Part shown: piece after piece, positions 24,314 through 38,266 of the stretch
How the letters are laid out: the number at the start of each line of letters is the position of its first letter
How positions within the stretch are numbered: the stretch's first letter is position 1
From: an uncultured bacterium
GTDB lineage: Bacteria; Bacillota_I; Bacilli_A; RFN20; CAG-826
DNA: 52,546 nt
Reading direction: 5' to 3'
Assembly: GCA_949293255.1 (NCBI GenBank)
Contig: CASFCL010000007.1
Span: 1-52,546, forward strand
The notes under the pieces: model-generated
The model's database searches: none
What the model was told of the DNA's origin: nothing
Seen by the model: the letters and a program-made list of their open reading frames with translations, nothing else
Made by a program: the position numbers and the translations under genes

Positions 24314-25736
24314 ATCCCCATGAACCCCAAAATTTATACCTAAAATGGAGGGTTTATGAAACTTAATTGAGAAACGAAAAGACACATTATCCATCAGCAT
24401 GTTAACGACAAGCTGCCACTATGTGTTTTGGCTCGAAAATATAATGTTTCTAGATACAATTTAGATTATCTTTATAACTTTTATCTTAAGTGGGGGTGAG
24501 GAAACATTTCAAAAAAGATATACAGAATATTCCACTGAAGAAAAAATTGAAGCAATACAAAGATTGCTAGATGGCGAAAGTCCAAGAGTTTTAGCAATTG
24601 AACTTAAATTAAGTGGCGTTGGTGTTCTTAAAAAATGGAAGTCGAATTATTTAGAAAATTCCAATAAAATAGTTACTATGAAAAAAATTCGGCTTCAGAC
24701 AGTCCTATTTTAAGTGATAGTGAACAAACCACAATAGACCAACTTAAAATGGAAAATTTAAAGCTGAGAGCTGAGATTGATTATTTAAAAAATTGAATGC
24801 TTTAAGAGATGAGGAGAGCCAAAGACAAGACAAAAAGTAGCTGTTGTCTACTCTCTTATAGCAGATTATCCTTTGGCTCTTTTGCTTGAAATTAGTGGCA
24901 TTTCAAAAGCGCTTTATTACTATCATTTGAAACAATCTCCGTATCTTGATAAGAACACTTCTATTGTACAAGAAATTGAAAATTGCTTTAAAAATTCAAA
25001 AAAACATATGGTTATCGTAGAATAACGGCTATTTTAAAGAAAAAAGATATTGTCGTAAACCATAAAAAGGTTTTGAAAATTATGAACCTTTTAAATCTAC
25101 ATCCTATACGAAAAAAGAGGAAAAAATACTCCTCTTATCAAGGAGATGTAGGGAAAAAATTGACAATTTATTGAAGCGTAATTTTAAAGCTTCTAGTCCA
25201 AACGAAAAATGGATGACTGATGTTACGGAGTTCAAAACAGAAGAAGGAAAGCTCTACTTCTCGCCATTTATTGATGGATTTAATCAGGAAATTGTAGGCT
25301 TCTCTATTTCGAAAGCCCCTTCAATGGATTTGATTATGGAATCTTTAAAAAATGCTCTAGAAAATCAGCAATTAAGTAATGCTGATAAACTTATAATTCA
25401 TTCGGATCAAGGGTGGCAGTATCAAAATCATAAATCATATCTTTAATGATGAAGATGATAAAATTGGGGCGACTCAAAGCATTTTAAGAAAAGGAAATTG
25501 AAATTCTAATGATTTAATTGAAGGTTTTTTTGGTTTAATGAAAAACGAAATTTTTTGTGTTAAAGATTACCAATGCAAAACATACGACGAACTCAAACAA
25601 GAAATAGAAAAGTATATAACTTTTTACAATAACGAAAGAATAAAACTTGCATTAAAGGCAAGTGCTCCTATACAAGATAAAAAAACAAATGATACAAATA
25701 AATTTATAAGGAAAAATTTTGGGGTTTACAGGGGAT
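24314..25736 (+). mobile_element. decayed IS3-family (IS150-like) insertion sequence
   Basis: The terminal inverted repeats are ATCCCCATGAACCCCAAAAT (from 24314) and, on the opposite strand from 25736, ATCCCCTGTAAACCCCAAAA. Between them lie orfA and orfB remnants with several disruptions. The copy sits between typA and its probable terminator. Confidence 0.8.
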
Positions 25737-25792: not shown

Positions 25793-28612
25793 TTATTCAA
25801 CAGATTTTAAGCTCTCTGCCATCTTAACTTTGTTAATTCTACTTGATATTAAAACATTAACAATGATACCAACAATAGCTGAAATTACTAAAGCAATTAC
25901 ATAAGTATCCCGATAAATTGCATAGGTCCAAGCGACAAGTTTTGTCTCGTTTGCACCTAGTACCATATACTCTAAAGGTAGACCTATAAACATTCCAAAT
26001 ATAGATCCAATAACAGTTAAAATAGATGATTCATAAACTAAGGATGAAGCAATTTCTCTTCTAGAAAATCCTAAAACTTTTAAGGTAGCGATTTCTCTTA
26101 ATCTTTCTTGATAATTTAAGATAGCTAAATTAATTAAAACTACTACTGCTAAAGCAATTGCAAATGCTTTTACGGTTGTTGTCATATATCGAATGCTAGA
26201 CATATATGAATTAACTCTATTAATGTTATCTTGTTGAGAGACAACACTAGCTACACCATTTATTTTTCTAATTTCATCTTTTAAATCTTTTTCACTTCTA
26301 GCCCAACTTCCATCCTCATTTTTAATAACATTAATCCAAGTTGAGTTACTATAATTAACTAAATCAATTGTTTCTCGATAAACATAAACTGCTCTCGCTG
26401 CAAAGGTGAAGAAAACTTCAGAAACGTGGAATTCATAATTATTATTATTGAAAATAACTGTGATTGTATCGCCTTTTTTAGCATCAATATCATCAGCAAT
26501 TGATTGAGAAAGTCCACAGTTATAAACAATATTTCCTTCATTATCTAATTCTGTTGGTTCCCAAGAAGCATATCTAAAATTAATTGTATCTTGATCAAAA
26601 TAATATAACATTTCGCTTGAATTATTATCTTCATGACCAGCAGTAACTTGTAAAGCTGCAAATTCGTAAACGCTATCAATACCTTCTACTGCTTCGATTT
26701 CACCTCGAATGGTATCTTTTAATACATTTCCGCTATAATTTGTAGATAAATCAGCACCTAAAATGTTAACAATATCGATATTAATGCCTTCGTCAAGAGT
26801 ATCTTCAATACCAAATCCACATATTAATAAACCAGTACAGCCCATAACGCCAATGACAACCATTAATGATTTAGCAAAATGGACTCTAATATTTCTAAAA
26901 GCCATCATTAAAGATGTATTTTTAATAATTTTATTTTCTTTTTTCTTTTCATAATTAATTTTAGGAGCTTTAGGTCTCATTGAGCTAGCTGGCGTGCTTC
27001 TTAATTCACTATAAATAAGTAAAATTGTCAAAGCAGATATCAAAACTAGCACTACTAACAATATAATTATTGCTGAAATATATGGGAAAACATATGAAAA
27101 ATCAGGAATTGAATACAATAATTGATATTTAATATTCATAACTAAAGGAATTAAAATCGGACCAATAATTAAACCTAAAGCAACCCCAATAAATGCTACA
27201 AAATTAAATAAAGATAGATAATAAAGTAAAATTTTCACTTTTGCTAACCCTAAAGCTTTTAAAGTTCCAATTTGAGTTCTTTCTTTCAAAATCATTTGAG
27301 TAATTGTTGTTAAAACAACAAGTAAAGAAACTACAAGGAAAATAATTGGGAAGGTGAGTGTCATTTGACGAGATTGAGCAATATCGTTTGTCAAAACTGA
27401 ACAAGATGGATAACTGTCTCTATCTAAAATTGCTATAAGTGTTGAATTTGCTAACTCATCGTCCTCGGTTTTAGAGTTAAAATATTCAGTTATTGCCTCT
27501 TGCACTTCTTTTACATCATAGTTTTCATCAACTTTTATAATATATTGATTATAAACTCGATTTAACAAGGTTGAGACATTGTCATCTTCGATTTCTCTTA
27601 TTGAATATTCCATATAATTTGAAATTATTGGAACCATTTCGTTTATATCGTCTTCATATTGTTTTAAATATTCATCTAAAAGTAATCTTGTTGCTTCATT
27701 TTCAACGTTTTCTAAAATAATTTCACTTAAAGTGTTGTAATTTATGTTATTTAAAATTGTTTTACTTAATGAAATTAATAATGTTTTATATCCCATTAAA
27801 AAGTTTGTTGTATTAAACTCTCCTGATTGAGCGTTTTCAGGATGATCCATAAGTCCTGTAATTTTTGCTTTTAAATCAATTGAAGTATTTTCATCAAAAT
27901 AATCAGAAATATGTGCTGAAATTGAATCAGTTATATCATCTCTATAGGTTTCTAAATATTGAGTTAATCTATCTTTTATATCATCTTCAAGTTCGGTTGT
28001 TGAAGAAACAAAATCTAAAGCAAAATCATAAATTGGATCAACATAAGATAAAATTGTATCTTCAAACCCGCTTAAATAAGAACTATCTAAACTAACAGTT
28101 GCTTCTTCGCCAATAAAGCTTGTTATATGTAATTCCTTGCTTGCTTTTCTTGCGGTTTCCTTATCGATATAGAAAAATTCTTGAATAGAATCAGTAGCTA
28201 ATGATGTATTAATATGAAGATTATAAGCTTTATTAATAGTTGGTTTTTCATAAGAAATTAATCCGTTTACAGAATTTCCATAAACAGCTGAAGGAAGTAA
28301 AAGTCTTGTTTCTACTTCTGAATTTGGACCTGAAAGTTCTTTAATTTTTTCTTTTTCCACATCCATTTTATCACTATTTAAATCATCCATTTCTGGATTA
28401 ATTGTGACCCAAATGTCTGCTAAATTGCCGTTTTCTTCAGAATAAATTTGATTAACTCTAGATTCTAAACTTTCAGTATTTGCTTCTAAACCAACATAAA
28501 GTGTAGATGAAATTGCGATAATAAAAATAATAGTAATAAATTGTTTTAAATTACTTACGAAATCTCTTAATCCTTTTTTAAATAATACTTTAAAAGTTCT
28601 CATACCTACCAT
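25793..28612 (-). CDS. ABC transporter permease, MacB/FtsX-like, with large extracellular domain
   Basis: A 939-residue permease. One membrane helix near the N-terminus (about 19-42) is followed by a roughly 370-residue external domain. Three or four helices follow (about 425-560, LTFPIIFLVVSLLVVLTTITQ onward), then another helix near 590, a second external domain (620-800) and three C-terminal helices (about 810-925). The FtsX signature GTLKALGLAKVKILLYY and its second copy ATLKVLGFSRREIASSL mark both halves. It overlaps the ATPase gene by 7 bp. Export of lipids, peptides or lipoproteins is typical of the family; the substrate is unknown. Confidence 0.88.
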   Translation of the reverse strand: MVGMRTFKVLFKKGLRDFVSNLKQFITIIFIIAISSTLYVGLEANTESLESRVNQIYSEENGNLADIWVTINPEMDDLNSDKMDVEKEKIKELSGPNSEVETRLLLPSAVYGNSVNGLISYEKPTINKAYNLHINTSLATDSIQEFFYIDKETARKASKELHITSFIGEEATVSLDSSYLSGFEDTILSYVDPIYDFALDFVSSTTELEDDIKDRLTQYLETYRDDITDSISAHISDYFDENTSIDLKAKITGLMDHPENAQSGEFNTTNFLMGYKTLLISLSKTILNNINYNTLSEIILENVENEATRLLLDEYLKQYEDDINEMVPIISNYMEYSIREIEDDNVSTLLNRVYNQYIIKVDENYDVKEVQEAITEYFNSKTEDDELANSTLIAILDRDSYPSCSVLTNDIAQSRQMTLTFPIIFLVVSLLVVLTTITQMILKERTQIGTLKALGLAKVKILLYYLSLFNFVAFIGVALGLIIGPILIPLVMNIKYQLLYSIPDFSYVFPYISAIIILLVVLVLISALTILLIYSELRSTPASSMRPKAPKINYEKKKENKIIKNTSLMMAFRNIRVHFAKSLMVVIGVMGCTGLLICGFGIEDTLDEGINIDIVNILGADLSTNYSGNVLKDTIRGEIEAVEGIDSVYEFAALQVTAGHEDNNSSEMLYYFDQDTINFRYASWEPTELDNEGNIVYNCGLSQSIADDIDAKKGDTITVIFNNNNYEFHVSEVFFTFAARAVYVYRETIDLVNYSNSTWINVIKNEDGSWARSEKDLKDEIRKINGVASVVSQQDNINRVNSYMSSIRYMTTTVKAFAIALAVVVLINLAILNYQERLREIATLKVLGFSRREIASSLVYESSILTVIGSIFGMFIGLPLEYMVLGANETKLVAWTYAIYRDTYVIALVISAIVGIIVNVLISSRINKVKMAESLKSVE

Positions 28613-36620: not shown

Positions 36621-36650
36621 TTGATTATTATTCTCTTATGGGGGTATAAT
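36621..36650 (+). promoter_or_regulatory. tRNA-Gly promoter within an inverted repeat
   Basis: TTGATT (36621-36626), an 18-nt spacer and TATAAT (36645-36650) lie 12 bp before tRNA-Gly. GCTTGATTATTAT and ATAATAATCAAGC form a 13-bp inverted repeat, so the trxA 3' end can also fold into a long-looped hairpin. Confidence 0.6.
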
Positions 36651-36662
36651 AATCAAGCACTT

Positions 36663-36736
36663 GCGGACGTAGTTTAATGGTAGAGCCTCAGCCTTCCAAG
36701 CTGATTACGCGGGTTCGATTCCCGTCGTCCGCTCCA
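36663..36736 (+). tRNA. tRNA-Gly (anticodon TCC)
   Basis: The acceptor GCGGACG/CGTCCGC, anticodon loop CTTCCAA, T-loop TTCGATT and encoded CCA are standard. An IS3 element begins 3 bp after the CCA end. Confidence 0.96.
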
Positions 36737-36792
36737 TTTTGAACTATACCCCCTTTACTGGACAAATTTAGTTTAGTGAAAGGGGTTTTTAA

Positions 36793-37317
36793 ATGGCTAA
36801 ATATTCGAAAGATTTTAAACTAAAATGCATTAAAAGTCTTGATGAGTCTCTTCCTCTTCCAAAATATCCTGGAGTTAGTGAAAAGACAATTCTAAGACAT
36901 GCTCAAAATTGGCGCAGGGCTTATAGGATTAAGGGCGAATCGATACTTGAGAATACAATCATATATCGAAATTACACTCTTCGAGACAAAGTTAAAGCTT
37001 GTAAAAGAATTATGAAAGGCGAATCCATGAGAAGTGTCGCCTTAGATTTAGGGATGGAAAATCATGGAACGGTAAGAAGGCGGTTCTTAGATTATACAAA
37101 TAATGGGATTGCTGGGTTACAATATAGTAAAGGAAAAAAACCAATAACAATGGTTCTTGAAAATCAACCCATGAAAAAACAATTAACAAAATCTGAGCGT
37201 GAGGAGCTTCTTGCGTTAAGAAAACGAAACGAAATTTTAGAAGCGGAGAATGACTTCCTAAAAAAATTAGATGCCTTGGTATCGAAGAAAGAGAAAAAAG
37301 GTACCAGGGCGAAGTAG
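36793..37317 (+). CDS. IS3 transposase OrfA (helix-turn-helix)
   Basis: A 174-residue protein with two tandem helix-turn-helix units (about 5-55 and 60-115) and a leucine-zipper-like C-terminus (EREELLALRKRNEILEAEND). Codon 97 (37081-37083) is CGG in HGTVRR-CGG-FLDYTNNGIAGL, exactly where relatives have the Trp of RW(V/F)xxYxxxG. An A AAA AAA heptamer at 37260-37266 allows a -1 shift into orfB, whose frame is open from there, giving the usual OrfAB transposase. Confidence 0.9.
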   Translation: MAKYSKDFKLKCIKSLDESLPLPKYPGVSEKTILRHAQNWRRAYRIKGESILENTIIYRNYTLRDKVKACKRIMKGESMRSVALDLGMENHGTVRRRFLDYTNNGIAGLQYSKGKKPITMVLENQPMKKQLTKSEREELLALRKRNEILEAENDFLKKLDALVSKKEKKGTRAK

Positions 37318-37334
37318 CAAAAGTTATCTCTAAA

Positions 37335-38168
37335 ATGCGACTTGAGAAAAAGTTTAAATTTTCACTTATTTTAAAAGTCGCCGGAATGAGCAGATCAACT
37401 TATTATTTTCTCATATCTAAACCCGATATTGATGCTAAAAATGCCGAAATTATCGAAGAAATTAAATCTTTATTTAGAATACATAAAAGAAATTATGGTG
37501 TAAGAAGGATTACTGCTTGTTTAAAGAAAAAAGGTATTAATGTCAATCATAAAAAGGTACATCGCTTGATGAAAAAGTTTTGTTTATCAGGCAAAAAGCC
37601 AGCTCAAAAATATCATTCTTATCAAGGTACTATAGGTCCAGTTGCACCAAATTTATTATCTCGTGATTTTTCAACAACTAATGTGAATCAAAAATGGACT
37701 ACCGATGTTTCACAATTCAAATTTAAATGGGGAAAGTGTTATTTTAGCCCGATTATCGATATGTGTAATTGCGAAGTTGTTGGCTATGATCTTTCCCTTT
37801 CTCCCAACTTTGAACAAATAGATAGAATGTTTAATTCAATCGATTTTTCCAAACGAGATATAAAAAAATTAGTTATACATTCTGATCAAGGATGGCAATA
37901 TCAAAATCCGAGATTTGTTAAAAAATTAAAAGATTTAGGAATAACTCAATCGATGTCTAGAAAAGGAAATTGCTTTGATAATGCAATCATGGAATCGTTT
38001 TTTGGTATTTTAAAAAATGAAATGTTCTATGGACAAGAACACATTTATAAAAATTTTTCTGAGTTCAAAAAAGCTTTAGATGCTTATATTTATTACTATA
38101 ACAACGAAAGAATAAAAGAAAAAATAGGCTGGTTATCACCTATTGAATATCGACTTTCAATTGGTTAA
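37335..38168 (+). CDS. IS3 transposase OrfB (DDE integrase domain)
   Basis: 277 residues if started at its own ATG, but the same frame is open upstream to about 37267 and is probably reached by -1 frameshifting. The HTH_21 region is YGVRRITACLKKKGINVNHK. The rve catalytic core shows WTTDVSQF (Asp), HSDQGWQYQN (Asp) and SRKGNCFDNAIMESFFGILKNE (Glu). It appears complete and active. Confidence 0.93.
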   Translation: MRLEKKFKFSLILKVAGMSRSTYYFLISKPDIDAKNAEIIEEIKSLFRIHKRNYGVRRITACLKKKGINVNHKKVHRLMKKFCLSGKKPAQKYHSYQGTIGPVAPNLLSRDFSTTNVNQKWTTDVSQFKFKWGKCYFSPIIDMCNCEVVGYDLSLSPNFEQIDRMFNSIDFSKRDIKKLVIHSDQGWQYQNPRFVKKLKDLGITQSMSRKGNCFDNAIMESFFGILKNEMFYGQEHIYKNFSEFKKALDAYIYYYNNERIKEKIGWLSPIEYRLSIG

Positions 38169-38224
38169 AATGAGTCTATAAAAATATATCCAGTAATTTG
38201 GGTACATACCATTTAGAAAATTTG

Positions 38225-38248
38225 AGTCCTTCGTAAAGGACTTTTTTT
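38225..38248 (+). terminator. terminator, probably originally of tRNA-Gly
   Basis: AGTCCTT-CGTA-AAGGACT is followed by seven T residues. It is displaced about 1.5 kb from tRNA-Gly by the IS3 element. Confidence 0.75.
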
Positions 38249-38266
38249 GTACCATTTTTCTAAAAT

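Follow-up and report, generated by a model that had tools for sequence, protein, structure and literature searches.

A CGG codon at an invariant tryptophan site of an IS3-family insertion sequence located behind a tRNA gene in a bacterium of the Candidatus Onthovivens genus

The window analyzed here, a stretch of 52,546 nucleotides from an uncultured bacterium of the order RFN20, contains an IS3-type insertion sequence in which a CGG codon appears where tryptophan would be expected. This raises the question of whether CGG is read as arginine or as tryptophan in this organism, and of what either reading would mean for the mobile element. The preliminary description had placed the codon at 37081-37083 (+) as in-frame codon 97 of OrfA (36793-37317, +) and had claimed tryptophan at this residue in IS3 relatives; position and frame proved right, and so did the claim about the relatives. 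When the codon was masked and homologs were aligned from 245 genomes of the order, all 27 distinct alignable sequences had TGG at this site, with one gap, and the same was true of 12 out of 12 additional homologs at the class level, giving TGG in 39 of 39 alignable homologs overall.

It had also been stated that CGG was essentially vacated and absent from the 32 other intact genes of the window. The latter part was not correct: an FtsX-type permease gene (25793-28612, -) contains one CGG, its codon 901 (25910-25912, -), which aligns with TGG in G058, another genome of the same genus. A third CGG of the window is codon 43 of a broken IS3 remnant (24564-24713); the surrounding region, 24519-25645, represents a second IS3-type copy that is interrupted by in-frame stops. 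The near absence of the codon was confirmed on a genome-wide scale, since only 63 of the 309,375 codons in called genes (2.0 per 10,000) were CGG, as against approximately 30 per 10,000 calculated from base composition (29% GC). Rarity alone is weak evidence, because other GC-rich codons are likewise scarce in a genome of this composition (CTG, CCC and CCG at 3.4, 3.1 and 5.0 per 10,000, respectively). It is the alignments, not rarity, that decide the meaning of CGG.

To examine that meaning, gene calling covered 1.04 Mb of the genome to which the window belongs (G000; 1.25 Mb in all) and 1.12 Mb of G058, and orthologs were aligned codon by codon with CGG masked and without any selection of sites. 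Among 25 alignable CGG codons of G000, 19 were opposite TGG and two opposite CGG, the remaining partners being codons for Asn (two), Arg (one) and Phe (one). The preliminary description had named CGG at conserved arginine positions as an observation that would speak against a tryptophan reading; an Arg partner was thus found at 1 of the 25 sites, a codon AGA in G058 that faces codon 204 of an acyltransferase gene (L021:12477-13271, -). In the reverse direction, 16 of the 24 alignable CGG codons of G058 were opposite TGG, two opposite CGG and none opposite Arg. The other arginine codons, CGA, CGT, CGC, AGA and AGG, were mostly opposite Arg or Lys in the same comparison; for CGA, 157 of 261 partners were Arg and 50 were Lys, and Trp was outside the eight most common partners. 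Conserved Trp sites of core genes, including those for CysRS, NrdD and a GTPase, also held CGG.

A comparison of Pfam scores under the two readings, for which genes were picked for their conservation, pointed in the same direction. With Trp in place of Arg at CGG, the score rose by 8.4 bits for NrdD, 6.1 bits for CysRS, 9.8 bits for a choline-kinase-like protein (APH/choline kinase), 5.6 and 8.2 bits for sugar epimerase and 4.7 bits for the FtsX domain of the window permease, whereas three families lost 0.6-1.1 bits. Helix-turn-helix (HTH) domains gained 4.8 (HTH_3) and 7.2 bits, and those of transposases, OrfA among them, either scored higher or were detected only when CGG was taken as Trp.

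The tRNA set was then considered. The genome encodes tRNA-Arg with anticodons ACG, TCT and CCT and one tRNA-Trp(CCA); tRNA(UCG) was absent from this genome, which is 94% complete. The search for a tRNA(CCG) with tryptophan features that had been proposed earlier, and likewise for a tRNA-Arg(CCG) that would argue for the standard meaning, yielded two genes with this anticodon, one on C8 and the other on C31. ARAGORN calls both of them Arg, a name that it derives solely from the anticodon. G73 is present in every tRNA(CCG) gene observed in the genus, and A20, the identity element that marks arginine tRNAs, is missing from all of them. The two genes (L014:8155-8228 and L025:382-455, both on the minus strand) are clearly different from each other. 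The C31 copy is Trp-like: its nearest match is tRNA-Trp, and it has the acceptor pairs A1-U72, G2-C71, G3-C70 and G5-C68. The C8 copy is harder to place, as tRNA-Ala, tRNA-Lys and tRNA-Arg are at least as similar to it over the whole length as tRNA-Trp. It is of the only type present in G058, yet CGG acts as Trp there. Of the 23 genomes sampled from the genus, 19 contained a gene for such a tRNA(CCG), and none was seen in the sister-genus genomes examined, where tRNA-Arg with anticodon TCG or ACG occurs instead. A covariance model built from ten tRNA(CCG) sequences detected tRNA(CCG) in additional genomes of the genus; when seven genomes of other genera were searched, six gave tRNA-Trp(CCA) as its best match and the seventh gave tRNA-Gly. 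In the mechanism that we propose, dedicated tRNA(CCG) genes, one or two in number, would decode CGG, the single TrpRS (one trpS gene was present) would presumably charge these tRNAs with tryptophan, and tryptophan would thereby be incorporated at CGG, which would serve as a rare second tryptophan codon.

Several other explanations should be weighed against this reading. Under the standard code, CGG would be a rare Arg codon, and codon 97 of OrfA would mark an element in decay, damaged by a W97R substitution. The scarcity that CGG shares with other GC-rich codons, the name given by ARAGORN and the one CGG opposite AGA would all fit such a view. However, CGG was observed at conserved Trp sites of core genes in both directions of comparison, the tRNA(CCG) genes lack A20, and OrfA and OrfB are both open; we regard this explanation as extremely improbable, and as a general reading of the genome the standard code was refuted by the codon comparison between G000 and G058. 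A related idea is that the element arrived recently from a standard-code host and that codon 97 is a functional Arg. Mobile elements do move, and the codon use of OrfA was too atypical for the gene caller, but Trp was present in all homologs including the two closest ones, the closest relative found was from the same genus, and a search of approximately 600 genomes of the class for a near-identical copy with Arg in a standard-code host found none. A recent arrival of this kind is therefore very unlikely, if slightly less so than a decaying element under the standard code.

The alternative that deserves somewhat more attention, while still being unlikely, is that CGG is ambiguous, with the two tRNA(CCG) types charged differently so that the codon is translated mainly as Trp, with Arg or other residues on occasion. 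The presence of two unlike tRNA(CCG) genes in G000, the uncertain affinity of the C8 type and the few sites opposite Arg, Asn or Phe are in its favor. On the other side, G058 has the C8 type only and nevertheless shows Trp at 16 of 24 alignable CGG sites with none opposite Arg, and both types have G73 and no A20. On the basis of the codon comparison between two genomes, the Pfam scores, the tRNA set and the taxonomy, we conclude that this genome almost certainly reads CGG as Trp, and that it does so by the published code of the Candidatus Onthovivens genus.

That code, which we take to be NCBI table 36, is not new in itself. As to taxonomy, the tRNA places and scores of the genome behind a record of Candidatus Onthovivens merdipullorum (L164) equal those of G201, a genome of the same genus as ours; therefore, the genus of the window holds Onthovivens. 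The preliminary description had regarded the class of reassignment as known, and this agrees with the literature: a CGG=Trp code was published in 2021 for an uncultivated Bacilli clade, GTDB order RFN20 (PMC8629427), and was named for Onthovivens in 2026 (PMC13092985). Our genome shares with the Onthovivens code the genus, the low GC content (29%), a CGG frequency below 6 per 10,000 (here 2.0), a tRNA(CCG) with Trp features, the lack of tRNA(UCG) and the retention of CGA as Arg. No difference in the code could be observed; what is described here in addition is the pair of unlike tRNA(CCG) genes and the usage of CGG within insertion sequences, the latter being a new instance of a known code. 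Anaerococcus also has a CGG=Trp code (PMC8629427), which shares the codon, the new meaning and the kind of tRNA with that of Onthovivens, but which belongs to an unrelated lineage and represents an independent change. Codon exchange between two genomes and the genus-wide occurrence of tRNA(CCG) genes thus provide independent support for a sense-codon change in bacteria. In practice, annotation of these genomes with table 11 mistranslates approximately 3% of tryptophans as arginine.

With CGG read as Trp, the change from TGG to CGG at the invariant OrfA tryptophan of this resident IS3/IS150-like element would have been silent. Other mobile genes use CGG as well. An IS3-like transposase on C12, 91% identical to one in G058, and a fragment of an IS3 OrfB on C22 each have CGG opposite TGG, and in a resolvase gene the codon is CGG at one and the same site in G000 and G058. 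Thus, resident mobile elements follow the codon change of their host. It had been suggested that such use would limit the spread of the element to hosts with the same code, which our results do not support. Only one of the six Trp codons of the element is CGG and the other five are TGG (OrfB has four TGG and no CGG), and the IS clade occurs in neighboring genera in which no tRNA(CCG) of this kind was found. In a standard-code host, Arg at the invariant OrfA Trp would probably be harmful; a single transition restores TGG at this codon. The closest OrfA relatives, one from the same genus (64% identity; the nearest relative found) and one from another genus (57%), both carry TGG. It appears that the code confines the element at most weakly, and over longer times the IS clade spans both sides of the code boundary. 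The matching of codes between a host and its mobile DNA has been considered for phages of TGA-recoding bacteria, in which a differing code proved to be no strict barrier (PMC10746230).

The element itself (36740-38210, +; 1471 bp, with ends inferred from the target duplication) has the organization of the IS150 group of the IS3 family, that is, an HTH protein OrfA (174 aa), a transposase OrfB (277 aa; 37335-38168, +) whose frame is -1 with respect to that of OrfA, inverted repeats at its ends and a short duplication of the target site. The left inverted repeat, TACCCCCTTTACTGGACAAATTT, is at 36747-36769 (+) and the right one at 38182-38204 (-); A-rich stretches are also present. The 4-bp duplication ATTT occurs at 36736-36739 (+) and 38211-38214 (+). 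Its left copy starts at the last A of the CCA of a tRNA-Gly(TCC) gene (36663-36736, +), behind which the element sits. It is this insertion exactly at a tRNA 3' end that distinguishes the element from the IS150 group, for which, to our knowledge, such a location is not known. A terminator-like hairpin at 38224-38250 (+) is probably the tRNA terminator, which the insertion has moved away from its gene. In G058, a tRNA-Gly gene is followed closely by a terminator and looks like an empty site. Of the promoter matches that precede OrfA, the best is the promoter-like site of the tRNA gene (TTGATT-18-TATAAT, 36621-36650, +; a consensus match only), and expression of the transposase therefore probably comes from read-through of the tRNA gene.

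A scan of the 245 genomes with the left-end motif revealed 17 places, 13 of which followed the CCA of an equally oriented tRNA gene at a distance of 10 nt (11 nt in one case). The tRNAs involved were those for Gly, Glu, Lys, Leu, Ser, Thr and His. For a single random site, the probability of such a position is approximately 4e-5, although some of the insertions may share descent. A second scan, which required CCA, added tRNAs for Pro and Ala as well as places without a tRNA. In the three complete copies, the 4-bp duplications start at the terminal A (A76) of the tRNA (ATTT in the window, AGAT in G106 and ATGA in G161), and hairpins followed by T runs are found behind the right ends. At the sequence level, these positions demonstrate the precision of insertion behind CCA. 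Among more distant OrfA relatives, tRNA adjacency of this kind was not found. We consider it probable that a clade of IS3/IS150-like elements targets tRNA genes at the terminal A of CCA with a 4-bp duplication, leaving the tRNA intact and separating it from its terminator, and that the tRNA promoter may drive the transposase.

Site-specific members of the IS3 family are exemplified by IS1397-like elements, which reportedly target REP sequences. The role of REP sequences as targets of insertion sequences has been documented (PMC1525189). The target here is different, namely the 3' end of a tRNA gene. A search of one open-access library found no tRNA-targeting IS3 elements, a negative result that is weak evidence given how few subscription journals such a library covers. 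If true, a tRNA end would offer the element a target that is safe, strongly transcribed and can be used again. Eukaryotes have tRNA-seeking retrotransposons, and an insertion sequence that seeks tRNA ends would be their bacterial parallel.

Copies at tRNA ends were recorded at window positions 36736-38214 and at L304-L309, L312-L318, L330 and L331. Several IS copies lie at contig ends, among them copies in G090 and G096, which suggests that near-identical copies are present in multiple numbers. A solitary left end of this IS on C10 (L016:12097-12145, -; 90% over 50 bases) is preceded by CACCA, and no recognizable tRNA gene was found beside it. In a restriction-modification-like cluster on C10, one gene had no plasmid or Pfam match and the methylase site was variable. 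A DNA cytosine methylase gene and the two genes that follow it (L016:14455-17002) contain four CGG codons in approximately 2.5 kb, a density much higher than that of the genome as a whole; a standard-code donor is a possible source of these genes, in which case CGG may be misread there.
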